A stretch of DNA of 39,034 nt from a virus: IMG/VR virus record IMGVR_UViG_3300017917_001537, positions 1 to 39,034 of that record; one strand, written 5' to 3'. The stretch's first letter is position 1. Every line of letters begins with the position of its first letter. This document shows, one piece after another, positions 3 through 39,023 of this stretch. The notes beneath the pieces were generated by a model, which worked only from the letters and a program-made list of their open reading frames with translations, made no database searches and had not been told where the DNA came from. The translations under genes and the position numbers were made by a program.

Positions 3-122
3 CCATCTGGTGGTACTCCACCATCTGGAGGCTCGCCAACTCCCAAGCCATCTCCAGCACCTGCTCCAGCACCATCAGGCGGTTCAGCCCCAGCAAGTCC
101 TGTTACAGTTGTTGATTTAAAC
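3..122 (+). other. Pro/Ser/Gly-rich linker at the left edge of the tape measure gene
   Basis: These codons encode a Pro/Ser/Gly/Ala-rich stretch that starts with two hexapeptide repeats, PSGGTP and PSGGSP. It then becomes acidic and helical just before the Met at 183. Such linkers join folded domains, so more coding sequence very probably lies upstream of the window. Confidence 0.7.
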
Positions 123-3100
123 GATATTATTGCTGAACCGGGTGATGAGATTAAAAAAGAACTGAGCGCCTTTGAGAAGGCAATGGAAGATCTTAAAGGT
201 CGTACAAAGGCTGAACTTGTTGAACTTGCAAAGAGTTTAAATATTGAAAAGATCGGCGGTCTTAAAGTAGATAGTCCAAAATTGTTAGTTAAGAGATTGA
301 AGAAAGCAATTGCAGAAGCAATGTCAAGTCCAGTTGAAAAGGTTAAAGAGGCTGCTGAAGCTGCTGCTGATGAGGCTAAAGAAGTTACAAAGTCCATTAA
401 GCCAAAGGCTCCTCCAGCAACAGGAAAGAAAACAAAAGAAACTTCAGAAGCAGTGACGGAAAGTGTTGCTGAGGCTCAAGAGGAAAAAGATGTTGAGGCT
501 GTAAAAGAGCAGGCGGAAAAAGATAAAAAGTCTGTCGCATCAGACAAGCCAGAGGGAAAGCCATCAGGTAAGGCAAAAAATACTTCTAAAAAGAAAACTG
601 AAGAGGTCGCTGAAGCTCAAGAAAAAGTTGATCTTGAAGCCGTTACAGAACAGGCTGAGGAAGACAAGGTTGCTGTAAAAACTGGTGGTAAGAAACCTAC
701 TGGTAAGAAATCCACTGTTAAGAAAAAAGTTGAACAGGCTGTTGAAGAAGTTGCATCAGATGTTGCTAAAACAATTGAAAAGACAGTTGCAACAATTGCA
801 GATATTAAAGGTGTTCTTAATGCTCAAATGGCAGCAGCTCTTGCGTTTGCTGAAGATACTGGGTCATCAAGTGCTGCTTTAAATGTATCTAATAAAGAAG
901 CAAAATCAAAACAAAAACAAGATCGCAAACTAAAAAGAACAGTTATTGGTTCTAGTAGTGAAACAAGTTCTATCAAATATGAATTAGCCAGAAGACTTTC
1001 TTCTGTTCAAGAACTGTTTATTAATGCTGCTATGGCTCAAGCAATGAGTGTTGATGAAGTAATTGAATCACTAAAGACATTGGAATATAGTGCTGGTAAA
1101 AATGGTGTAAGAACATTCAAAATAACAAAAGAAAGATTTTTTGAATTAGCAAATCTATTAGGCGTGAGACTGCCACCAATATTCAATGAAATGGGCGAAC
1201 TCCTCAGTAAAACTGGTGGTGTATTAAGAATAGAAGAAGCAGCCCTTAAAGATTTAATATCTGCATTAACAAAAACAACACGAATCAAACCGGATTCAGC
1301 TTTGGCAAGGGCATTCCCAGAACTAATTAATAAAGTTGTTCTTGAATTTGAAGCAGAATTAATTAGGGCATTGTCATTTGGTGAAGCTGGAAAAGATATA
1401 TTCAATCTGCCATTCGCCACCAGATCATCTGGTCAAGGCTTTAGTTCAAGATTTAAAGCGGCATTTCAACCCATTCTTGATCTTGCTAGAAAACCAAGTA
1501 AACAGCAAAGAGAGGAAGCGGAAGCATTAGCTGCAAGAAGAGGATTTGTATCTACAGAGGATAAAGCAGAAAAGGATGCTCAAGCAAGAGACCGACAAGC
1601 AAAAGCTTTCAGGGATAGGCAAAGAGCTCAAAAGAAAGAGCAGGAAACTAAGAGGGCCGAAGAGGGCAAGATTGTTGATGGTATGAGCAAAGAGGTAACT
1701 GGAGGGGTACCTGCCTATGCTCCACCAAGCAAAGATAGAAGACAATTGTTTAATATCAAAGAAGAAGTTGATAAAGAACTGAAAAAAGCTTATGCAACAA
1801 TTGAAGAAAATTTTAAAGGCGATGCTGAAACAATTAAACAGCTAAAAAAGATTGCAGACGAAACAATTGCCGGTCCTAAAATCCGAGAATTTGTAAGAAT
1901 TCTTAGAAAACAATTGGCAGCTATTTCTTTATCAACATCAAAAAGCCCTGCCGAAAAAGCAAGTGAAATAAAAGCCTTAGTATCACAAGCAAAGAAGTTG
2001 TCAAAAGGATTTAAGTTGCCAAACTTGGCAACAGGAGAAAGCGTATTTACACCACCAACAATTGAAGGTAAACAACCTACAGGTGAGGGTTTTAAACCAA
2101 CAGGTCTTGGATATCCAGAAAGACCAAGAGCTGGTAAAAACAAAGAAGGTGAAGAGTATGATGCAATAAGTAAAGTCAATTTTGAAACAGCAGAAAAACT
2201 TGATGAAGCTGTTGAAAATGCAAAGAAACAACTTATTGAAGCACAAGATGCATTAAGACAAATTGAAGGTCTAAAGACAGACCTCTCTAGCGCAAAGAAA
2301 ACATCAACTAATCCGTTTAAACAAAGTGCATTTAAGAGACTGCAAGAAGGATTGAAGAAATTTGGTATTGAATCCAAAGTTACATTTGAAAAAGTTGATG
2401 AGGCTGAGGCAGAACTTCTTATTGCGATTGAAGAAAGAATCAAACAAGCAAAACTTGATCTTGAACAAGCACAGGCTAATTTGCAACAAGCATATAAGAA
2501 GCCATTTGGCGGTGGTGGATCGGGTACAACATCATTTGGTCTTCCATCAATGGAAATGCTTGACCCATTTGGAATGCCAATTGGTGGGCAAGGAAGAGGA
2601 AGTAGAAGAGCGCCACGAATTGGTCCAATGTCTGTTGCATTTGTTGATAAGGGTGATATAACAGGAAGCCTTACAACTGTATATGAAGCTATAAGACAAA
2701 AACTTAATATCCCAGTTGAAATTATGGATCAAGTTCTTAACCAATTAAGAACTGGCTATACAGATGCGGAAGGTAATGTTCGAAAAGCTCAAAATAAAAT
2801 CAATGAGGTTGGCGATCAAATGTCAACCCAGATTAGCGCCGGTCTTGATGAATTAGTAAAACAATTGCAAGAAACAATTGGGACATCTACTGACAGTATT
2901 GAAATCGTTAGAACAGCAATTATTAATGCTAGAAACAAATTCTATGCTCTTGAAAGGAAGGCTGCTAAAGAAGAAGCTGATGCTGGAAATCAGCAATTTG
3001 GTTTCAACATAGACAGATCTCAAAGACTTAATTTAGCAGCCGAAGTAGCAAATAGAATTAGAGAAACAAAAACTGCATCAGACAACTTCTTAGAATATCA

Positions 3101-6100
3101 AATCGACACTCTTAGATATATTGCAAGACAATTTGGTTTCACTGGATCTGGAACAAAAGAGCAAATGCGTAATTTCATAATTGCTCGACTTAATGAATTA
3201 GAGTTTGCAATTGAAGGAGCAACTGCTGAAACAGTCAATGCTGCAATTGAGGCTTCAAAAGATGCAACAGCAAAGGTTAAAAAGAAAAACGAAAAAGCTG
3301 AAAAGGCTGCAAAGAAAGCGGAAGAAGCAGAGCAAGAAGCAGATGCCACTACAGAAAAACCAAAGAAAGCACCAAGAAAGAAAAAAGAACTACCAGCCAT
3401 TTCTCCAAGTCAAATAAAAGCACTCATTAATGCTCAGATGGCAGAATCTCTCAAAACACTGCCAGTCGCTCCTGTTGAACCAACAAAGGTGGAGCCAGTT
3501 ACTCCTATCAAACCTAAATCTGTAAGGCTTCCAAGAGGTGTTAAGAAAGCACAAATTGATCAATTAATGCTTACTGTTAAACCAGCATTTGATGCAACTG
3601 TTGAAGATTTTTCCGCTAAGACAAAGGAAGAATTACTTTCAAGCCTTGGTATATTCAAGGCTATTCAGAGAGAGACAGCAATCCTCAACTATATTCTAGA
3701 AAAATACGGAATTGACATTAATGAATTAATTAAAAAGACTGTTGATGAGATAAGAGGCAGAAGTGCAAAGATTAAGTCTTCTGCAATGGGTATTTCAATC
3801 CCTGATTCCAAGATTATCCCAGCAAATATTTTGGGAAGTGACGCATTTAAACAACTTTTGAATGCGGGTGTTCCTCTTCAAGATCTGGAAGAGCAATTCC
3901 AATATATGAATAAGATCATAAAATTAAGTGTTAATGATTTAACTTATGAATCAGAAGACGCTCTTAAAGAAATTCTTAATACATTCTTGTTTATAAGCAA
4001 TGATGTTGATCTTGTTGGAAAATTATTTAAGGAAATGGGTATCAGTGTTGATATGGCTATTGACGACCTTCGTGCTGCCCTAAATATGATTGCTGAAGAA
4101 AGAGCATTTGCTGGTGGAACAGTGCGCCCCGCTGGTGGCGGTTCATTCCCTCCAGTTACATCTCCAACAACTCCTCCAACAACACTAAGAACTCCTCCAG
4201 CATCAGCGACTGCAACGACTACAGCAACAACTGCTGCCACAAAATCTACATTTAACTTTATTGGTGCTCTCTCCAAACTTGGATCGGCTCTTGGTGTTGT
4301 ATCTCTTGCTCCATTCAAAGCCTCTATTGCTATCACCGGTTTTGCATTTAAGATAACTGGAATTACTAAGTTATTCAATTTTGCTTTTCCCAAGGTTACT
4401 AAGGCTGATGCTCTCAACGCTCAAGGTGATTTGAAGAATACTATTATTGGTTACTTCTCTTTCTTAGGTGACATGATTAAAACTGGTTTCAAGAGCCTTG
4501 CTAATCGTCAAACATATGTTAAGGCATTAACTGGTTTAGCATCCATAAGTGGAGCAATGTTTAAAGTCTACGATGCAGCTATTGCTGCATCAATGCGTTT
4601 AATTCCTTTTGGAACAACTCTTTACAAAATTGTATCCGGCCCAATTAAACTGTTTGGTGGCGCTATTGCTGAAGCCGCTAAAGAATCAAGATCTGCTAAA
4701 ACAGGAATATCTGGGTTCTTCAAGGAATTTAGAAAGTCTTTGGGTACAAGTCTTTCTGGTATAGCCGGAGATATTAAATCAAAACTAGGTACAGCATTAA
4801 AGGGAGTTGGGGGTTCATTATCTGGATTTGGCTCATCAATTAAGGGCGGTCTGGTTTCCAACATTGGAATGAGCGCTGGAATGCTAGGAACAAGTCCTCT
4901 TGGAATGTTTGGTGGAAACATGCTTCAGAGCCTTATTACAAGTCTTTCATCTATTCCTGTAATTGGCACACCTGTTGTTCTGACACTAACACTAATAACA
5001 GGAGCGATAGCAGCTCTTGTAAAAACTCAAGACACATGGGGTGCAAAGAGCGAGCAAACTTCTAAAAACTTCAAAGAGGCGTTTAATAACATCAAGGCTG
5101 CTGCTGGCGCTCTGCTAAAGCCGATTGAGGATATGTTTGGTGTTTTCATTGGTGGAAATGAAGAATCAGGTAGCGCAACAGAAAGAGCGAGAGGTCGATT
5201 TGAAAAGTTCTCTGAATCAGTCGTCTCAATATCTAAAAAGATTAGAGTGTTTGTTGAGACCACACTGGTTCCAGCATTTAGAATTCTCCTTGCTTCAATC
5301 GTAGTCCTCATTAGAAAAGCCATCCCTGTTTTGTCATCTTTCTTTGGCTTATTAAAAGCTTTGTATGACAAATATGTAAATACAGCAGAAAAACAAATGG
5401 AAAAGGTTGGAAAAGCTTTTGAAAACGGCTTCACACCTGGAAGTTCTGCTCAAATGCGATTTGTTGAAGAGAATATTAAAAATGTAAAATCTGTTGGCGA
5501 AGCTTGGTCTGATTTCGTTTCTAAATTCGGCACTCTGCTCGCAGCATTTGGCATTTTGGTAAATGGCTTTATTGGAAACTTGGTTATTGAGATTGTTAAA
5601 GTTATTACAAGACTTCTTATTGATGCTCATGAACAAATTTTTATTGGCATTAATAACTTAATTGTTCTAGTCCTAAAAGGTATTGTTGCTTTAGTTGTTG
5701 AAGTTGTTAAGATACTTGTTTTAACAGTTACAAGAGGAATTAGTGCTCTACTAACGCCATTGACATGGTTGCCAAGAATTGGTGGAAAAATTAAAAATGC
5801 ATTAAATTCAATGAATGATGGTGTTGGATCTTTCTTTGATGGGATGAGGGATGGCGCTGTTAATGTTGTTGACGGTCTTTTGACTCCATCGTTTGACAGG
5901 GTTAATGCTGCTATTGGTAGCTGGAGTGACGCTTCTGATAACGCATTCGACAAGCTAAAAGAAAACAATAGAAAGACATTCACAAAGCAAGCTTTGGATA
6001 TGATTAAGGGTGTTCTTCCTGAAGGCGCTGGCTCTGGATTGTTTAAATCTTTCACCAACCTTATGAAGCAGGCTTTCCAAGATCCTGCTGCTGCAAAAGC

Positions 6101-9100
6101 TGCTGGTCAAGCAATTCAAAACTCAATTAAAGAAGGTTTGAAGAATCTTAAGGAATCTTATTTTGAATCTGTAATTGGTAACTTGGCTAATGCCATTGGA
6201 AATATTGGAGATGATCTTTCTAAGATTCTTAGTGAGCAAAGAGATGAAGCTCTTAAAGCCTATGATGACCAAATTGCAGGTATTGAGGCTCTTGCAGAAG
6301 CAGAAGAAAGATTAACTGCAACAGAAGAATACGAATCAAATAGAAGACAAAGAATTAAAGATAGAGAGTTGCAAAGAAACAACTATCAAAAAGAAAGGGC
6401 TTTGGCTATTTATGAAGGTCGAGTTGATGATGCAAGAACTCTTGACCTTGAAGAATTAAAGAATGTTGATGATTACAATAAAGAAATTGCCGATATGGAT
6501 AGATCAAGGCAAAGAGATTTGCAAGGTCAAAATAGACAAGATGCAATTTCTATTATTCAAAGAAATAGAGATGAGGCTGCAAAACTATTTGATGAGGCTA
6601 TTCAAGAATTTGAAGATTATGTTGAAGAAGTAACCAAGAATGGAACGATTTCTGAAACTCAATTAACTGAGCAATTTAAAAGAATTGCTGCTGAAGCCGA
6701 AAAGAAGTCGGGAGCAATTAATACTGCATTCCAAACATCATTCTCAAAATTGCCAGAGTTAATTAGAACTGGATTAGATCCAACAACATCATCATCTGGA
6801 TTTTTCTCAACTGAATTAGGAAAACTTGTTGAAACCGCAAAGGTTCGTTTTGGTCTTTCAACCGGGACTGGGGCAAATGCTGGATCAATTCTTGGTGTCA
6901 CATCAGAAATGCTCACAAGCGCATCGACTGGTATTCCATCTGTAATTTCAAACGCCTTTGGTTCTGGTGGAGCAATTCAAAATGCTTATGGCACAGCTCT
7001 TTCAAATCTTTCTACTTATATTGCAAATAAGAACGACTCTGGAGATGAAAAGAGTTTAACTGGAATTTTCAAAAAAGCAATTGCTGATGCAAACGCAGCA
7101 ATGGAGCAAGAAATTCTTAAATCACAAAGAGGAATTGGTAGTGCATTTGAATCAGTTGTTAACACGATTAATGAAAAGGTTAAAAAGCTTTCTCTTGCCG
7201 AAGCAGTTAAGAAGGGAATGGAAGAGGCAATTGCTACTGCAAAGAAAGGTGCGGGCGATATTGGCGATGCTATTGGTGGTGGAGGAGGTTCATCTGCTAA
7301 TAAGCCAAGAATAGTTGTTTCATATTGGAAGAGAGAAAAAGACTCCCTTGCATTCAGAAGATCAAAGGGCAGAGCACCAAACGAAACGGACTGGATTGGA
7401 ATATCAGAAACATCTGTTGACAGATATGTTGGTAGCACAACTCATGATGTAACAAGTACACCTGTTGGAACAAGACCGGCATTCTTCAAGGGTGGAAGAA
7501 TGTTCTATGGAAATGGTGGTCCAACGAAAGGGCCTGTTCAACAGGGCATTCCAGCAACATTGCATGGTGGCGAATATGTCATAAGAAATTCTGCTGTAAA
7601 GAAGTATGGCTGGGGCATGATGCAACAAATCAACCAAGGCTCTTATAAACCAAAAGAATATAAGAATGGTGGAATGGTAAAAGGCAAAAAGGCAATTACA
7701 GGCAGTATAAGAAGCATTGAGTCTAAATACTCTTCATCAAATATTAAAGATATTATTGAAAAAGCAGAAAATGAATTAATTAGTAAAGATAGAATAATTA
7801 ATTATTCAAAAGAAAATGAAAAGAAATTTAAAGATTATATTTCAAAAGGATATGTAAATCCAAATAATGTCTATGAATCTCCATTTGGAAATGACGGTCC
7901 GTTCCCTAATGTTCCTTATGCTGGTTTTAGATGGATGCCACAAGATTCTTTGTCAAAGAAAGATAAAACAAATTGGAGTCTAAGACAATTCAATGGTCTT
8001 GAGCCAATGTGGAAAGGTGGTAAAGGGGCTGGCAAGGATTGGAATGTTTGGAATGCCAAAGCCCAAAATGCAAAAAATCAAAATTCATTAATGGGAGATG
8101 TCAAGAGTACATTATTTGGTCTTACCGCTATTGTGACAGATATAAAGCATTCTGGCAGAAGAGCTTTTGGCGGAGAAGACATCAAGCAAATCTTTAATGA
8201 AAACGCTCCTACTGCAGCAAGAGTCGGTTCAGGAATCAACTTTGCATCAAATGTTCTTCCCTTTGTGCAGGCTGGTTACAAAGCAGGAGCTGGTGTAATT
8301 ACTAAGAATATTGGCAACTTGGGTGCTGGAACAATTGGTCAAGGTTTAGAAGCAAAAGCTCCTTGGTTAAATGCAATAGGAATGGAATATGACCCAATAA
8401 CTAAAACATGGGGCATGGCAGGATCTGCTATAAAACCAAATGTTGCTTCTGCTGTCACAACACCAAAAAATAAAGCAGCAGTGGAGTTGTTTAGAAAGCC
8501 TATTGTTCCTCAAAGAGTATCATATGATAAATCTCGTATGGTAACTGATTGGCGAGATGAAGTGTCTCAAAAAATTGCTGAAATTTACGATATTAATGGT
8601 GAAAGAGTCGCATTTGGTGCAGATGATTCCTTTAAGAGAAAGTTCCCATTTGTAAAAGTATTAAATAGAAATCCATTTGAAATTTCTGGCTTACCTTTTA
8701 ATTCTCCAAAAGGAATTCAATTAGCTAATGACTATATGCATGCACTTTTTGCTAATAAAGCACAACAAGGGTATGCGACTCAGGTTGATGCTTTGCTTTA
8801 CGCAATGATGCGTGGAGATATGAAGGCTGCTCTTGAATTTAATAGATTAGCAGGTGTAGGTCGTAGAACAAAACCAAAAGAAGAATCTGCTGCACAATTT
8901 ATGTCATATTTAAAGGAAAAGTTCCCTTATGTTATATCAGGAATGAGTGAACAAGGTATTGATAAATTTAATCCTAAAAATTTATTCTTAGTTCATGAAA
9001 CAATACATAAGCCTAAGATAGACAAAGATGGAAATCTTCTACTAGGACCAACTTCAAACTTCCAAACATATTTCCCAGAAATTGATAATATTGATGACTT

Positions 9101-11498
9101 AATAAAAGTTCATTTAGGTTTTCTTGGTAGGAATTTAGACCCAATTCCATATGCTCTTGAAGTCAAAGAAATAAAGCAAAGAATACTTGAAAACGCTAGA
9201 GAACAAGGTAAAGGAATTGTTAATAACACTATTTTTGGTCAAGGCAGAGACTACTATAGAGATACTGTTCACTTTGCATTAAATCATTTAGTTATGGGTC
9301 ATGGTCAAAGAGAAAGTCTAAAAGAGGGCTATGTTATAGTGGCTAATCTGATGGATGCTTTGAAAGCAAACCCTGGTGCTTTGACAAATCTTTATGCAGT
9401 TGATACATGGATGACACCCAAGCCGGGCGAGGCGCTGAAGTTCCCAGCTGGAACTTTTGATGTATTACCAGCAGGTGATGGTGCAAGCGATGCTGTTTCA
9501 AGACTTTTGTTTGACAAGGTATATCCAAAAGATAAATTAGGATACAATACAAAACCACAAGGTGCGCCTTATCCAACCATACCTGGTGGTGTACACGGCT
9601 CAGAATCTACTGAGTGGACAGCATACATTAGAAGATTGGCAAAAGCATTTAAAGTTCAATCAGGTCCGCATTTTGAATCTGCAAGTCAAAGAGCATCTGC
9701 AATTGAAAACTATTCATTATTCAATGAACTTCCAAGTTATTGGTATACTCTTTCCCCTAATGAGATTGCAAGACTCTTTTATAAGAGAAATATTTTTACT
9801 GGTGTAGAAAATAAAATCAAAAATATGAGGCAACCTGATATGTTTAAGGGTGGTCTAATTCCTAGCTTTGCAAAGGGAGGTTTTGTAAAGGGTAATGCCA
9901 ATGTTCCTAATGAGGATAATTATAATATATCTGATTTCCCAGATCCTCCGTTAGTCCCTGGAATGATTCGCCGTAGTAATCCTTATTTGGGATTCGGTGA
10001 GGACAGCAAAAAGGCGTTCTTTGAAAGTGTCCTTGAAAAGAGTTATCGTGCAGCAGAGGAAATGATTGGTTTTGGTTTGAAAGGATATCCAAAATATAAT
10101 TTCACTTCTTATGATGACGGTAGTGCTGCTATGCAAATAATTACTAATGAAAAAGATAAATATCTTACATGGTCTAACTCAATTAGTGGAAAATCTTCAA
10201 TTATGAATAATCCAAAAATAAAAAATTATTTAATTAAAGTTTTAAAAATGGCATATGACAAGGTGTACAAGGTCGCTTCGTTTACAGATAAATACTTAAT
10301 AGATAAAAATATACCAATTGAAGATATTCCACAATCTCCAAGTGGTGTCTTTGATGTAAGTCGAGTTGCAACAAATCAACTTGGAGATAACATTGATGAT
10401 AACGCAAAATTTCTTGGATATAATAATAAATTTAAAAAATTAAATATTGGATTTGTTTTTGATAAATTAATGATGGCGACATTTGGAAAAGACAAACGAA
10501 ATATGATGGGAGATATTTCCCCAACAGATTATGCTGGGTATAGAATGGGTCATGAAGTATTTTTTGATTCATTGAAGATGGCTCTTGAGAGATTTAATCT
10601 TTTAACAGGAATCCCATATAATTTGAAAGATGGTTATTCAAATATCTCTTCTAAAATTCTGAAAGCAAAAAACCAATTGCAATTAAATATTGTTCCATTT
10701 GGTAAATTTTTTGGTCGCAACAATGCAAAAATGGATGCTACTGATTTTGATAATTTAACAGCAAGAATTAGATATGACACGGATCCATTTACATTCCTTA
10801 GTAGTTCTTATATTGGTGAAGATTACATTGATAAACTGAAAAAATCAATTTCAGGTGTATTCCAGCATGAATTGGGTCATACTATTGGTTTATATCATTC
10901 GCACTACTACGGAGATCAGGCAAGTAGTGTTGATTTTATAAATGATCAAGGAGAAAGCATTATGTCATATAGTGCACCTCGAAGTCAGGGTTATCTTGCT
11001 GGAGATGTTGCTTACTTCCAAGCTTTGCGTAAGGCTGTTGGAATTAAGCCAACTAAGAAAAAGAAAATTCCTAAGAAGTTTGGTGGTGGAATAATTCCAT
11101 ATTTTGATGGCGGTCAAACATTTGGTCCAATGGGTCAAGGAATTCCAGCAATTCTTCATGGTGGAGAGTTTGTAATAAGAAAGGCTGCTGTTGACAAGTA
11201 TGGACTTGATCTTCTCAAGCAGATTAATAATGGAATTTATGCTCCAAAGGTTCCTAAGTTTAATATGCCAATGTCTAACTATACAAAGATTTCTGGAGTG
11301 AGCGGTTCTCCACAAATGTCCTCTTCAGAAACTACCCATAATTACAATTTCTATGTCGATAACTTTATTGGAGAAACCGAATGGTTCAACTCCATGATGA
11401 AGGAATATAATATGAAGGTAGTCCCTGCAAACCAAAAGCAAGCAGGTCTTGAATCTCGTGTCATTAAAACTTATAATGGTATCAACAGAGGAATGTAA
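3..11498 (+). CDS. Tape measure protein, 5'-partial, with C-terminal cargo modules
   Basis: This protein sets tail length and is normally released with the DNA at infection. The frame is open to the window's left edge: 60 codons without a stop precede the ATG at 183, so that Met is probably internal and the visible part is 3831 residues. Counting from the ATG at 183, residues 3-43 resemble a Rho-N/SAP fold. Residues 45-200 are Lys/Ala/Glu-rich with a 47-residue tandem repeat. Long coiled-coil stretches follow. Hydrophobic segments lie near 1587-1613, 1699-1727, 1782-1813 and 1820-1857, as usual for tape measures. A charged coiled coil spans about 2030-2190. The C-terminal third has LHGGEYVIR at 2460-2468, an unrecognised module, a metzincin signature at 3562-3572 and a second LHGGEFVIR at 3658-3666. 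Its stop overlaps the next start (TAATG). The tape measure call rests on length, composition, hydrophobic segments and position before the tail-tip genes; the extra modules are unusual. Confidence 0.85.
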   Translation, partial: PSGGTPPSGGSPTPKPSPAPAPAPSGGSAPASPVTVVDLNDIIAEPGDEIKKELSAFEKAMEDLKGRTKAELVELAKSLNIEKIGGLKVDSPKLLVKRLKKAIAEAMSSPVEKVKEAAEAAADEAKEVTKSIKPKAPPATGKKTKETSEAVTESVAEAQEEKDVEAVKEQAEKDKKSVASDKPEGKPSGKAKNTSKKKTEEVAEAQEKVDLEAVTEQAEEDKVAVKTGGKKPTGKKSTVKKKVEQAVEEVASDVAKTIEKTVATIADIKGVLNAQMAAALAFAEDTGSSSAALNVSNKEAKSKQKQDRKLKRTVIGSSSETSSIKYELARRLSSVQELFINAAMAQAMSVDEVIESLKTLEYSAGKNGVRTFKITKERFFELANLLGVRLPPIFNEMGELLSKTGGVLRIEEAALKDLISALTKTTRIKPDSALARAFPELINKVVLEFEAELIRALSFGEAGKDIFNLPFATRSSGQGFSSRFKAAFQPILDLARKPSKQQREEAEALAARRGFVSTEDKAEKDAQARDRQAKAFRDRQRAQKKEQETKRAEEGKIVDGMSKEVTGGVPAYAPPSKDRRQLFNIKEEVDKELKKAYATIEENFKGDAETIKQLKKIADETIAGPKIREFVRILRKQLAAISLSTSKSPAEKASEIKALVSQAKKLSKGFKLPNLATGESVFTPPTIEGKQPTGEGFKPTGLGYPERPRAGKNKEGEEYDAISKVNFETAEKLDEAVENAKKQLIEAQDALRQIEGLKTDLSSAKKTSTNPFKQSAFKRLQEGLKKFGIESKVTFEKVDEAEAELLIAIEERIKQAKLDLEQAQANLQQAYKKPFGGGGSGTTSFGLPSMEMLDPFGMPIGGQGRGSRRAPRIGPMSVAFVDKGDITGSLTTVYEAIRQKLNIPVEIMDQVLNQLRTGYTDAEGNVRKAQNKINEVGDQMSTQISAGLDELVKQLQETIGTSTDSIEIVRTAIINARNKFYALERKAAKEEADAGNQQFGFNIDRSQRLNLAAEVANRIRETKTASDNFLEYQIDTLRYIARQFGFTGSGTKEQMRNFIIARLNELEFAIEGATAETVNAAIEASKDATAKVKKKNEKAEKAAKKAEEAEQEADATTEKPKKAPRKKKELPAISPSQIKALINAQMAESLKTLPVAPVEPTKVEPVTPIKPKSVRLPRGVKKAQIDQLMLTVKPAFDATVEDFSAKTKEELLSSLGIFKAIQRETAILNYILEKYGIDINELIKKTVDEIRGRSAKIKSSAMGISIPDSKIIPANILGSDAFKQLLNAGVPLQDLEEQFQYMNKIIKLSVNDLTYESEDALKEILNTFLFISNDVDLVGKLFKEMGISVDMAIDDLRAALNMIAEERAFAGGTVRPAGGGSFPPVTSPTTPPTTLRTPPASATATTTATTAATKSTFNFIGALSKLGSALGVVSLAPFKASIAITGFAFKITGITKLFNFAFPKVTKADALNAQGDLKNTIIGYFSFLGDMIKTGFKSLANRQTYVKALTGLASISGAMFKVYDAAIAASMRLIPFGTTLYKIVSGPIKLFGGAIAEAAKESRSAKTGISGFFKEFRKSLGTSLSGIAGDIKSKLGTALKGVGGSLSGFGSSIKGGLVSNIGMSAGMLGTSPLGMFGGNMLQSLITSLSSIPVIGTPVVLTLTLITGAIAALVKTQDTWGAKSEQTSKNFKEAFNNIKAAAGALLKPIEDMFGVFIGGNEESGSATERARGRFEKFSESVVSISKKIRVFVETTLVPAFRILLASIVVLIRKAIPVLSSFFGLLKALYDKYVNTAEKQMEKVGKAFENGFTPGSSAQMRFVEENIKNVKSVGEAWSDFVSKFGTLLAAFGILVNGFIGNLVIEIVKVITRLLIDAHEQIFIGINNLIVLVLKGIVALVVEVVKILVLTVTRGISALLTPLTWLPRIGGKIKNALNSMNDGVGSFFDGMRDGAVNVVDGLLTPSFDRVNAAIGSWSDASDNAFDKLKENNRKTFTKQALDMIKGVLPEGAGSGLFKSFTNLMKQAFQDPAAAKAAGQAIQNSIKEGLKNLKESYFESVIGNLANAIGNIGDDLSKILSEQRDEALKAYDDQIAGIEALAEAEERLTATEEYESNRRQRIKDRELQRNNYQKERALAIYEGRVDDARTLDLEELKNVDDYNKEIADMDRSRQRDLQGQNRQDAISIIQRNRDEAAKLFDEAIQEFEDYVEEVTKNGTISETQLTEQFKRIAAEAEKKSGAINTAFQTSFSKLPELIRTGLDPTTSSSGFFSTELGKLVETAKVRFGLSTGTGANAGSILGVTSEMLTSASTGIPSVISNAFGSGGAIQNAYGTALSNLSTYIANKNDSGDEKSLTGIFKKAIADANAAMEQEILKSQRGIGSAFESVVNTINEKVKKLSLAEAVKKGMEEAIATAKKGAGDIGDAIGGGGGSSANKPRIVVSYWKREKDSLAFRRSKGRAPNETDWIGISETSVDRYVGSTTHDVTSTPVGTRPAFFKGGRMFYGNGGPTKGPVQQGIPATLHGGEYVIRNSAVKKYGWGMMQQINQGSYKPKEYKNGGMVKGKKAITGSIRSIESKYSSSNIKDIIEKAENELISKDRIINYSKENEKKFKDYISKGYVNPNNVYESPFGNDGPFPNVPYAGFRWMPQDSLSKKDKTNWSLRQFNGLEPMWKGGKGAGKDWNVWNAKAQNAKNQNSLMGDVKSTLFGLTAIVTDIKHSGRRAFGGEDIKQIFNENAPTAARVGSGINFASNVLPFVQAGYKAGAGVITKNIGNLGAGTIGQGLEAKAPWLNAIGMEYDPITKTWGMAGSAIKPNVASAVTTPKNKAAVELFRKPIVPQRVSYDKSRMVTDWRDEVSQKIAEIYDINGERVAFGADDSFKRKFPFVKVLNRNPFEISGLPFNSPKGIQLANDYMHALFANKAQQGYATQVDALLYAMMRGDMKAALEFNRLAGVGRRTKPKEESAAQFMSYLKEKFPYVISGMSEQGIDKFNPKNLFLVHETIHKPKIDKDGNLLLGPTSNFQTYFPEIDNIDDLIKVHLGFLGRNLDPIPYALEVKEIKQRILENAREQGKGIVNNTIFGQGRDYYRDTVHFALNHLVMGHGQRESLKEGYVIVANLMDALKANPGALTNLYAVDTWMTPKPGEALKFPAGTFDVLPAGDGASDAVSRLLFDKVYPKDKLGYNTKPQGAPYPTIPGGVHGSESTEWTAYIRRLAKAFKVQSGPHFESASQRASAIENYSLFNELPSYWYTLSPNEIARLFYKRNIFTGVENKIKNMRQPDMFKGGLIPSFAKGGFVKGNANVPNEDNYNISDFPDPPLVPGMIRRSNPYLGFGEDSKKAFFESVLEKSYRAAEEMIGFGLKGYPKYNFTSYDDGSAAMQIITNEKDKYLTWSNSISGKSSIMNNPKIKNYLIKVLKMAYDKVYKVASFTDKYLIDKNIPIEDIPQSPSGVFDVSRVATNQLGDNIDDNAKFLGYNNKFKKLNIGFVFDKLMMATFGKDKRNMMGDISPTDYAGYRMGHEVFFDSLKMALERFNLLTGIPYNLKDGYSNISSKILKAKNQLQLNIVPFGKFFGRNNAKMDATDFDNLTARIRYDTDPFTFLSSSYIGEDYIDKLKKSISGVFQHELGHTIGLYHSHYYGDQASSVDFINDQGESIMSYSAPRSQGYLAGDVAYFQALRKAVGIKPTKKKKIPKKFGGGIIPYFDGGQTFGPMGQGIPAILHGGEFVIRKAAVDKYGLDLLKQINNGIYAPKVPKFNMPMSNYTKISGVSGSPQMSSSETTHNYNFYVDNFIGETEWFNSMMKEYNMKVVPANQKQAGLESRVIKTYNGINRGM
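465..746 (+). repeat. Tandem 47-residue repeat in the tape measure gene
   Basis: Two consecutive units of 141 bases begin at 465 and 606. Both start with VAEAQE, continue with [VL]EAV.EQAE.DK, and end in a Lys/Gly/Thr-rich tail. The units differ at many positions, so the duplication is not recent. The encoded region is highly charged and probably an extended helix or linker. Confidence 0.75.
7491..7677 (+). repeat. Glycine-rich tape-measure element, copy 1 (LHGGEYVIR)
   Basis: This segment encodes GGRMFYGNGG, then a QGIPA.LHGGEYVIR core, then AVKKYG and MMQQIN. It matches the copy near the C-terminus at about 11085-11240, which has QGIPA.LHGGEFVIR, AVDKYG and LLKQIN. Elements of the LHxGEYV type are common near the C-terminus of tape measure proteins. 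Two diverged copies in one protein mark the borders of an inserted region. Confidence 0.8.
7690..9840 (+). other. Unrecognised module of the tape measure protein (cargo 1)
   Basis: This segment of about 700 residues lies between the first glycine-rich LHGGE element and a short Gly-rich linker (GGLIPSFAKGGFVKG) at about 9849. It does not look like coiled-coil tape measure sequence; it is rich in aromatic, Pro and His residues like a globular domain. Two conspicuous motifs are LVHETIHKP near residue 2936 and RDTVHFALNHLVMGHG at 3026-3041 (numbered from the ATG at 183). I do not recognise the family. The paired His motifs could mark a catalytic or metal site, but that is inference. Confidence 0.45.
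9900..11075 (+). other. Metzincin-like zinc protease module of the tape measure protein (cargo 2)
   Basis: Residues 3562-3572 (10866-10898), numbered from the ATG at 183, read HELGHTIGLYH. This is a full HExxHxxGxxH zinc-binding and catalytic signature. Twenty-two residues later is SIMSY with Met3594 (10962-10964), the form of a metzincin Met-turn, followed by a polar helix (LAGDVAYFQALRKAVG) as in matrixin/serralysin-type enzymes. The preceding roughly 330 residues would hold the N-terminal subdomain but are not recognisable by eye. The fold is inferred from the motif pair. The module is flanked by glycine-rich linkers. Confidence 0.7.
11085..11240 (+). repeat. Glycine-rich tape-measure element, copy 2 (LHGGEFVIR)
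   Basis: The segment encodes GGGIIPYFDGG, QGIPAILHGGEFVIR, AVDKYG and LLKQINNG. It closely parallels copy 1 at about 7491-7677. It lies about 110 codons before the stop, the normal place for this element in tape measure proteins. Copy 1 is therefore the displaced or duplicated one. Confidence 0.8.
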
Positions 11499-11896
11499 TG
11501 TCAGTTATTAGTTTTTTATCATTAAATAATCAGGAAATTACCGAGCAAGGTCGAAAAATATCAGACACTGTAACAATCAATGCCGGTCAGGTTGAGCTTG
11601 ATAACGGAGCATCAAGGCGTTATCTAAAAACAAATAAAAGAACCTTCACATTCCAATGGGATTGGCTTCCATCCCTAGAATCACATACAATTGATAACCG
11701 TAAAGGTAGAGATTATATTAAAGATTTAGCATTAACAGTTAGAAATAAAATTTTAATGAAAATTAAAATGGATCACAATGAAGAAGCCGAGTTGATTTAT
11801 GTTTATATAAATGATTATAGTGAAGATCTTGTAAGAAGAGATCCTTCAACCGGGTGTGATTATTTCACAGTTTCTCTTACAGTTGAGGAAGCATAA
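11498..11896 (+). CDS. Tail protein, distal-tail-like (paralogue of next gene)
   Basis: A 132-residue protein with ATG overlapping the tape measure stop (TAATG) and an AGAGGA Shine-Dalgarno site upstream. It is predicted to be mostly beta-strand. Its central FQWDWLPS..., TIDNRKGRDYIKD and NDYSEDLVRRD match the C-terminal half of the next protein, where the equivalents are LSWEWLPS, TIDKRQARNFIKE and TNYSEDLIRRD. The pair looks like an old gene duplication. Its place straight after the tape measure is where distal tail (Dit) proteins sit, so a tail-tip ring or adaptor role is likely. The exact family was not recognised. Confidence 0.65.
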   Translation: MSVISFLSLNNQEITEQGRKISDTVTINAGQVELDNGASRRYLKTNKRTFTFQWDWLPSLESHTIDNRKGRDYIKDLALTVRNKILMKIKMDHNEEAELIYVYINDYSEDLVRRDPSTGCDYFTVSLTVEEA

Positions 11897-37280: not shown

Positions 37281-39023
37281 ATGACAGACTTTATGGGAAT
37301 GAATCTTCGATTTGAAGATTTTGATAATTTATTAAATCAAGACGAACTTGTAGAAGTACCAGTTCCTATTGAAGTATTTGTAACTGATAAAAAATATTTA
37401 GGTTTACCAAATCTATCACCAATTCAATTGGAAATAGTCAGGCATAGCACCCAAATCTTGAAAGAGCATACACTAAAAAAGATCATGGGGGAGGAAGAAG
37501 GCGCAGAATATTATAAAAAATATACCGATAACGAAGTTATTTGCATGTTAGGTAAAGGTTCTGGTAAAGACCACTGTGCAAGAATCTCGATTGCATATAC
37601 AGCTTACTTATTGCATTGTTTGAAAGATCCATTAAGTTATTTCGGTAAAGCAAATGGAGTTTATATTGACCTTCTTAACTTGGCTGTTAACGCACAGCAA
37701 GCACAAAGAGTTTTCTTTGAGCCTTTGAAGAATCTTTTGCTTAGTTCTCCTTACTTTAACCAAGTTGGTTTTGAACCGAGAGTTTCAGAAATCTTTTTCT
37801 TTAGTAGACCAGTAAGATGTTTCTCCGGTCACTCAGAAAGTGAAGGTTGGGAAGGTTATGAAGTATTAACAATTATCCTTGACGAAATTGCTGCCTTTAA
37901 AACTGACGCTGAGGTTAAGGGAGACACTAGATCAAAAGGTTCTGCATCAGCGATTTATAACATGAGTAAGTTATCTGTTATGTCTCGTTTCCCAGAAGTC
38001 GGTAAAGTTATTCTTTTGTCATTCCCTCGTTACAAGGGTGACTTTATTCAGCAGAGATTTTTTAGTTCCAGAGAAAAGGAAGAACCAAAAACTTGGTCAA
38101 TTAAAGCTGCTACTTGGGAAGTTAACCCAACCATAAAAAGAGAGCAATTAGAATCGGAATACATTAGAAATCCAATTGAAGCAAGAGCGAGATTTGAATG
38201 TGAACCACCAAATATGGAAGACGCTTATTTTAGAGATCCAGATTTAGTCAGAAAATCTTTTATGTATGGAGAGAATCCATTAGATGAAGATGGAATATAC
38301 AAGCCTTGGTTTAATAATCAAGATGGTCATAGAAGATTTATTCATGTTGACCTTGGATTAAAGAGAGACAGATCTGCTTTATGTATGTCTCATTGTTCAG
38401 GATTTAAAGAATTAAAAACATCAATGGGAGTTGAAACATTGCCGGTGATTAATGTTGACTTAATTCATTCTTGGGAAGCTCAGCCGGGAGCTGAAATTAA
38501 CTTTGCATCTGTTAGACAAATGATTGTTGAACTATGTAGAAAGTTTGATGTTGCAAAAGTAACTTTTGACCGTTGGCAATCTATCGAGATGATCCAAAGT
38601 TTAAGATCGTTGGGTATTAATGCAGATTTTCATAGCGTTAAGAAAACGGATTACGACACATTAACTGGTGCAATTTATGATACTCGTTTGCGTGGATATT
38701 GGAATGAACTTCTTGTTGAAGAAGAACTTTTGAAATTAAGATTGTTTTCAAACAATAAGATTGATCACCCAAACTCTGGAAGTAAAGACTTAGCTGATGC
38801 TTTGGCCGGTTCTGTTTATCAAAGTGTTCAACATATGGCTTTTGAGGCTGAGGTTGATATTGAGATTATTGGAACCGACTTTAAACAATTTGAAGATATG
38901 GATGAAGACAGCGATTATGGAACTGTCAAAGTGTATAATCCAGATATGGAACAATTTGTTCCTGGATATTCAAAATATGAATTATCAACAGAGAATGGAG
39001 AAAAATGGCTAGAAAACCTATAA
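37281..39023 (+). CDS. Large terminase subunit (packaging ATPase/nuclease)
   Basis: A 580-residue protein with AGGAG 7 bases before ATG. The ATPase has Walker A GKGSGKD (91-97) and Walker B LTIILDE with Asp201-Glu202. The C-terminal nuclease has the RNase-H-like acidic residues HVDLGLKRD (Asp357), VTFDRW (Asp430) and SKDLADAL (Asp503, Asp506). It pumps genomic DNA into the prohead and cuts the concatemer. Length and motif order are normal. It overlaps the next start by 19 bases. Confidence 0.9.
   Translation: MTDFMGMNLRFEDFDNLLNQDELVEVPVPIEVFVTDKKYLGLPNLSPIQLEIVRHSTQILKEHTLKKIMGEEEGAEYYKKYTDNEVICMLGKGSGKDHCARISIAYTAYLLHCLKDPLSYFGKANGVYIDLLNLAVNAQQAQRVFFEPLKNLLLSSPYFNQVGFEPRVSEIFFFSRPVRCFSGHSESEGWEGYEVLTIILDEIAAFKTDAEVKGDTRSKGSASAIYNMSKLSVMSRFPEVGKVILLSFPRYKGDFIQQRFFSSREKEEPKTWSIKAATWEVNPTIKREQLESEYIRNPIEARARFECEPPNMEDAYFRDPDLVRKSFMYGENPLDEDGIYKPWFNNQDGHRRFIHVDLGLKRDRSALCMSHCSGFKELKTSMGVETLPVINVDLIHSWEAQPGAEINFASVRQMIVELCRKFDVAKVTFDRWQSIEMIQSLRSLGINADFHSVKKTDYDTLTGAIYDTRLRGYWNELLVEEELLKLRLFSNNKIDHPNSGSKDLADALAGSVYQSVQHMAFEAEVDIEIIGTDFKQFEDMDEDSDYGTVKVYNPDMEQFVPGYSKYELSTENGEKWLENL

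Follow-up and report, generated by a model that had tools for sequence, protein, structure and literature searches.

Exchangeable enzyme modules between two copies of a conserved element in the tape measure protein of a distant relative of actinobacterial siphophages

The stretch of DNA analysed here, hereafter the window, is a virus record of 39,034 bases. Its largest ORF, located upstream of minor tail genes in the same order as in Streptomyces phage LukeCage, encodes a tape measure protein (TMP). This assignment is based on the great length of the ORF, the occurrence of minor tail genes just downstream, and a profile match of residues 2131-2503 with PHROG 3547, tail length tape measure protein (E 1.8e-9). 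The large terminase (37281-39023) is closest to those of Streptomyces phages, such as LukeCage (41% identity), with which the window has a common gene order comprising TMP, minor tail genes, helicase, primase, DnaE, recombinase, RuvC, and terminase. Based on this terminase similarity and common gene order, the virus is a distant relative of actinobacterial siphophages, and its host is likely actinobacterial. Bacterial genomes scanned twice with a few patterns revealed no copy of module A (see below) or of the TMP tail, so that no host was assigned through these regions, and a PADLOC search gave no match. The TMP N-terminus (window 183-800) displays a Rho_N/SAP-like helix pair, whose counterpart in the relative L002, near residues 120-144, matched PF07498 below the cut-off (E 0.0055). 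The TMP and its surroundings comprise the following features:

183-11498, + strand: TMP ORF, 3771 aa, recognised by its PHROG 3547 match, size, and gene order.
7476-7640, + strand: element E1, the upstream border, 55 aa (residues 2432-2486 by profile), with 34 of 57 aa identical to E2.
7665-7685, + strand: Gly-Gly hinge NGGMVKG just after E1, read from the sequence; similar hinges follow E1 in relatives.
7692-8492, + strand: N-terminal part of module A, which includes a hydrophobic stretch (INFASNVLPFVQAGYKAGAG) and gave no Pfam or PHROG match.
8493-9845, + strand: module A, candidate ADP-ribosyltransferase (ART)-fold domain with an invariant HET (core 8775-9701), from AlphaFold2 models and homologues.
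9849-9893, + strand: Gly-Gly hinge GGLIPSFAKGGFVKG between module A and the metzincin, resembling the first half of the element.
9900-11069, + strand: predicted metzincin-type zinc protease module, from matches with Reprolysin_4 and a serralysin profile.
11070-11234, + strand: element E2, the resident downstream border (residues 3630-3684 by profile), most similar to the lone element found in cassette-less relatives.
11235-11495, + strand: fixed C-terminal TMP tail (SETTHNYNFYVDNFIGE...), 82-93% identical to that of the cassette-less L002 and L005.
11498-11896, + strand: next tail gene, 132 aa, a conserved neighbour found in 13 relatives (61-89% identical).

The preliminary description had reported two copies of an LHGGE[YF]VIR motif with near-identical surroundings, and both copies were recovered in frame within ORF 183-11498 (LHGGEYVIR at 7560-7586 and LHGGEFVIR at 11154-11180), together with the flanking QGIPA, AV.KYG, and QIN. 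The common stretch is wider than had been described, extending over 57 ungapped columns of which 34 are identical (60%); two 210-aa pieces containing E1 and E2 matched each other by BLASTP (E 6e-20), and both copies score about 91 bits against an element profile. Profile searches indicated that the element is usually single in related TMPs and located near their C-terminus. A consensus query identified similar sequences in 462 named phage records, mostly from Mycobacterium phages, and most of the matches listed lay in features carrying a tape measure protein annotation. The element itself is thus a common TMP motif, and the unusual part is the occurrence of two copies with large cargo between them. 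Two elements were also found in the isolated phages GMA4 (Gordonia) and LeBron (Mycobacterium); LukeCage has one element, followed by cargo that looks by eye like lysozyme and M23 domains.

This layout had been interpreted as a duplication of the end element with insertion of swappable cargo. A recent duplication is ruled out by codon agreement at chance level and by identity comparisons. E1 and E2 have 99 of 165 bases in common, and their identical residues use the same codon in 14 of 32 cases, which is no higher than the 15.4 expected from codon usage alone. The closest sequences to window E1 are upstream elements in other TMPs with a cassette (L047, 74%; L023, 70%), and those closest to E2 are elements that occur singly in cassette-less phages (71%, versus 58% between E1 and E2). 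Since each copy is closest to its positional counterpart in other phages, E1 and E2 appear to be old paralogues, with the element tree serving only as a guide given the short length of the element.

The Gly-rich linker described as splitting two modules corresponds to the hinge at 9849-9893, with module A and the metzincin on either side. Module A has no match in Pfam or PHROGs, and querying named phages and viral contigs directly with both window modules returned nothing. Its relatives occur in other TMP cassettes and in two kinds of giant non-TMP protein, and nine module A sequences have in common an invariant pattern of HET, R, H...NH, GH..R, NP, and D. The catalytic triad pattern of ARTs has a histidine in strand 1 (H-Y-[EDQ] or a variant); the invariant HET histidine of module A is located in the first core strand, more invariant H and D residues occur later, and these may correspond to the ART residues. 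AlphaFold2 models were obtained for the window module A (pLDDT 71, pTM 0.71) and for the L089 module A core (pLDDT 80, pTM 0.77). The best structural alignments of the window model were with Tpt1, AvrPphF ORF2, pertussis toxin S1, and OspC3 (Z 5.2 to 3.8, weak), and those of the L089 core with CopC, Tpt1, DarT, cholera toxin A1, and pierisin (Z 5.2 to 3.1, weak), most of the remaining alignment rows of the latter spanning the N-terminal helices only. Because the two models agree on the class, the single Z values being weak, module A is regarded as a candidate ART-fold domain. This call could be wrong, in which case the effector reading would be weaker and the cassette finding unaffected. Foldseek searches of module A against the PDB and viral models gave no match at E<=0.001, the best viral hit being an uncharacterised phage protein (E 1.5e-3). 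A specific assignment as RNA 2'-phosphotransferase (Tpt1/KptA) was not supported by profile comparison, the hhalign scores falling within the range of shuffled columns. Hydrophobic or glycine-zipper stretches are found in L066 and L067 at a place similar to that in the N-terminal part of the window module A.

The giant phage proteins with module A carry one or two copies and are encoded by ORF 1754-15448 of L102-L105 (4564 aa) and ORF 5333-11176 of L101 (1947 aa). The 4564-aa protein adds GNAT and exonuclease domains, and repeated short FSSG-type stretches occur between its parts.

The second window module exhibits both the HExxHxxGxxH/D zinc motif (HELGHTIGLYH, 10866-10898) and the Met-turn (SIMSY, 10956-10970) of metzincins. 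It matched Pfam Reprolysin_4 over its cut-off (E 4.4e-7), and a profile of three metzincin relatives matched serralysin-type protease C (E 6.5e-6); a scan of the collection with the metzincin returned nothing. Serralysin/reprolysin-type metzincins have the same zinc motif and Met-turn, but are secreted, whereas the present module lies inside a tail protein, with the catalytic part alone recognisable.

If the cargo between the elements is a cassette, as the preliminary description put forward, related TMPs should differ by exchange or absence of modules while their flanks stay aligned, and this was found, including in pairs that are 95-97% identical in DNA. Relatives were gathered through the next tail gene and the TMP C-terminal tail, by sequence patterns, so that their numbers should not be read as frequencies; all close relatives with a cassette are metagenomic contigs. 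In L002 and L005, the alignment with the window runs through the TMP body as far as residue 2491 and resumes at about residue 3628, continuing to the end; these two have a single element and no intervening sequence. In L012 and its copies, two elements enclose a different cassette, of 1196 aa and with an Rpf-like domain, and L023 has three elements and two cassettes, one combining Rpf-like, C2H2 finger, and metzincin modules, the next a sortase and another module. The DNA of L127 and L129 is 95% identical over 9.2 kb upstream and 6.6 kb downstream, with 2137 bp between the elements in L127 (a 703-aa cassette with module A) versus 32 bp in L129 (9 aa). L125 and L126, whose DNA identity is 96-97% on either side, differ over most of the cassette beyond the lysozyme part. 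L093 and L094 have E1, lysozyme, module A, E2, and tail in common, one with a DELD module and the other with STIR.

Among the relatives compared, the window flanks are nearest to those of the cassette-less L002 (upstream 67%, tail 93%), and its module A is nearest to those of L131 (62%) and L127 (59%), whose upstream flanks are 26-28% identical. Likewise, the lysozyme of L023 is 75% identical to that of L131, versus 25% for the upstream flank. Because the nearest relatives differ between the flanks and module A or the lysozyme, these sequence comparisons indicate separate histories for cargo and backbone. Home-made profiles distinguished about 18 arrangements of Rpf-like (RPF), metzincin (ZIN), ART, sortase (SRT), STIR, and DELD modules, a number that varies with the thresholds and is affected by contigs truncated at their ends. 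The Rpf-like lysozyme, of the transglycosylase type, is the commonest cargo, and in all complete cases with at least two elements and long gaps the cargo lies between elements. A swappable cassette between the elements is supported by these alignments, so that the swappable cargo of the initial interpretation stands and the recent duplication does not. Two elements just 3-9 aa apart were observed in the L165 group and in L047 and L129, apparently as empty bays keeping both borders.

Many module borders are marked by Gly-Gly hinges that are similar to the first half of the element. In 18 TMPs, the hinge pattern matched 58 times in 20,917 cassette residues and not once in 38,690 residues of the TMP bodies, the pattern having been written post hoc, the sequences being related, and some of the 58 matches overlapping. 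The L127/L129 alignment breaks within the Gly-Gly hinge between the elements. Not every breakpoint coincides with an element or a hinge, part of the DELD/STIR junction in L093 and L094 lying elsewhere, and a causal part of the hinges in recombination is hypothetical.

TMP wall hydrolases, polyvalent proteins, and the reconfigurable TMP-like effectors of contractile systems are already known. Mycobacteriophage TMPs hold peptidoglycan-hydrolase motifs, including motif 3 of TM4 and the Rpf motif of Barnyard, and the TM4 hydrolase motif can be deleted, tails then being about 20 nm shorter (PMC1796659). These likewise represent an enzyme domain in an actinophage TMP, with Rpf-type kin, which in their case is dispensable in the laboratory; they differ in being single and small, described without bracketing elements, arrays, ART, metzincin, or sortase (PMC1796659). 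Polyvalent proteins likewise combine several unrelated enzyme domains per polypeptide, ART and zincin being among the commonest, in shuffled order (PMC5512222), and module A itself is found in giant polyvalent-type phage proteins. Here, in contrast, the carrier is a TMP and the array lies between fixed elements, PMC5512222 making no mention of tape measure proteins. With its ART-like and metzincin modules, the window TMP unites unrelated enzyme domains in a single protein of an invading element, and more mixes occur in relatives; as in polyvalent proteins, the window cargo may be delivered into the host with the DNA.

Sle1/Tme of actinobacterial contractile injection systems likewise combine a TMP-related carrier with an exchangeable functional part, and Sle1 was reported to be packaged and released (PMC13277306, PMC11126660). 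These are cellular injection systems with a variable C-terminus, whereas here the carrier is a phage TMP whose cargo is internal and precedes a fixed tail, and the window, with its terminase, polymerase, and tail genes, is a phage genome and not a contractile injection system cluster. The MuF-VIP2 fusions of Microbacterium phages also place an ART-type domain on a virion protein, deliverable at infection, but their carrier is a head protein and their ART is VIP2-like; this domain is missing from one close relative (PMC7302621). The layout also differs from that of polymorphic toxins, the cargo being internal and followed by E2, a conserved tail, and a conserved tail gene, with no C-terminal toxin/immunity pair. 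In the part of the open-access literature covered by our searches, we found no bracketed swappable effector array inside a phage TMP, and no description of a TMP with a sortase, metallopeptidase, or ADP-ribosyltransferase in this arrangement.

Siphophage TMPs lie within the tail tube and leave it at infection. As the reading that we consider fairly probable, the C-terminal region of the TMP would form a cargo bay with an exchangeable enzyme array, borne by the tail and leaving with the TMP at infection. This bay would be composed of E1, a variable Gly-Gly-hinged enzyme array, the resident E2, and a fixed tail that is probably an anchor at the tail tip. As the sequence comparisons show, recombination between phages swaps, removes, or adds the array and leaves the ruler part and the tail region where they are. 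The Rpf-like lysozyme, sortase, and possibly the metzincin may act in the envelope, glycine-zipper (and DUF6861) stretches such as those present in the L066 and L067 cassettes may help membrane passage, and the ART-like module A would act on the host once inside. In the window, where the predicted cargo is ART and metzincin, the latter may free its neighbours by cutting the polypeptide or cut host surface proteins. Iyer et al. suggested that the zincins of polyvalent proteins either process their own polypeptide or target proteins of the host (PMC5512222), and by analogy either role could hold for the window metzincin. Neither an immunity gene nor a host target was found. The ejected effectors suggested in the preliminary description are plausible, since the cargo is enzymatic and module A also occurs in giant polyvalent-type phage proteins.

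Several alternatives account for part of these observations. It is conceivable, if somewhat doubtful, that the elements are ordinary functional TMP repeats, such as docking or hinge motifs, with no part in exchange, the cargo changing by illegitimate recombination. Such a role would fit the frequency of the single-copy element in named phages (462 records), the breakpoints outside elements and hinges at part of the L093/L094 DELD/STIR junction, and the DNA of window E1 and E2 (99/165), too different for homologous recombination between them; it fits less well with the L127/L129 break in a hinge and with the location of cargo between elements in all complete multi-element cases with long gaps. 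It is unlikely that the modules are aids to envelope entry only, every one of them acting on the wall or surface and being swapped as host walls differ, with the ART a wrong call or a structural domain. The abundance of the Rpf-like lysozyme speaks for such a restricted role, as do the ability of sortase and metzincin to work at the cell surface and the known TMP wall hydrolase motifs, which aid infection of stationary cells (PMC1796659), whereas module A is ART-like in two models, does not resemble wall enzymes, and is found again in giant proteins of the polyvalent type.

Tail length is set by TMP length, a TM4 TMP lacking 114 aa giving a tail about 20 nm shorter (PMC1796659), and the insert might accordingly be mainly a spacer whose extra length tunes the tail, its domains being remnants. 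This is very improbable: the zinc motif, Met-turn, and HET pattern are kept across divergent copies, and near-identical phages differ by 700 aa, which in an all-ruler insert would alter tail length greatly. Least credible of all is a misassembly of metagenomic reads. Repeats can cause misjoins and the close cassette-bearing relatives are all metagenomic; yet the same architectures were recovered from different metagenomes (E-RPF-E in the L012 group, E-STIR-ART-E in L089-L092), uninterrupted reading frames span nearly all cassettes, E1 and E2 are alike at just 99 of 165 bases in the window, and two elements also occur in LeBron and GMA4, which are isolated phages.

Exchangeable arrays of this kind in a tail-length protein suggest that phage tails bring exchangeable protein cargo into bacteria, and bear on whether phage TMPs bring effectors into cells, beyond wall-cutting domains. 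We see about even chances that the TMP is a general delivery vehicle of tailed phages, with a border-marked internal bay from which interchangeable envelope enzymes and host-modifying effectors (ART, protease, sortase) would enter ahead of or with the DNA. If true, this would represent a phage counterpart of polymorphic effector systems. The present case connects three separate lines of work, on TMP wall hydrolases, on polyvalent proteins that are injected, and on the recently described effectors of contractile injection systems that resemble TMPs. Naturally occurring near-isogenic pairs, which differ in whether cargo is present or in which cargo it is, make effector delivery by TMPs directly testable.

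A sortase and a metzincin within a tail-length protein are unexpected in themselves. The sortase of L023 (8276-9994; PF04203, E 4.8e-22, nearest to class E/C) lies between two TMP elements with its His, Cys, and Arg kept, and sortases were also found in the TMP cassettes of L022, L116, and L117. In L022 (also L116), a relative of L023, the TMP is split after the sortase into ORFs 3-9407 and 9386-10471, by a natural break or a sequencing error. Within 5051-8113 of L023, a C2H2 zinc-finger-like stretch (CGICGKGFANGGLLRAHQHTGH) occurs between the Rpf-like and metzincin modules, its PF00096 match being below the cut-off (E 0.005). The kinase-like look, by eye, of the cargo end in L123 and L124/L125 (DNLMLDALGNPIRIDPGASMFYR) was unsupported by Pfam, NCBIfam, and PDB sequence searches. 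The small STIR module (GGxSTIRSxxF...VLIPTV...GxHLGVY) was observed as TMP cargo in L066, L067, L089, and L094, and also outside the TMP, in another large tail-region ORF of the related phages L032, L034-L039, and L041.
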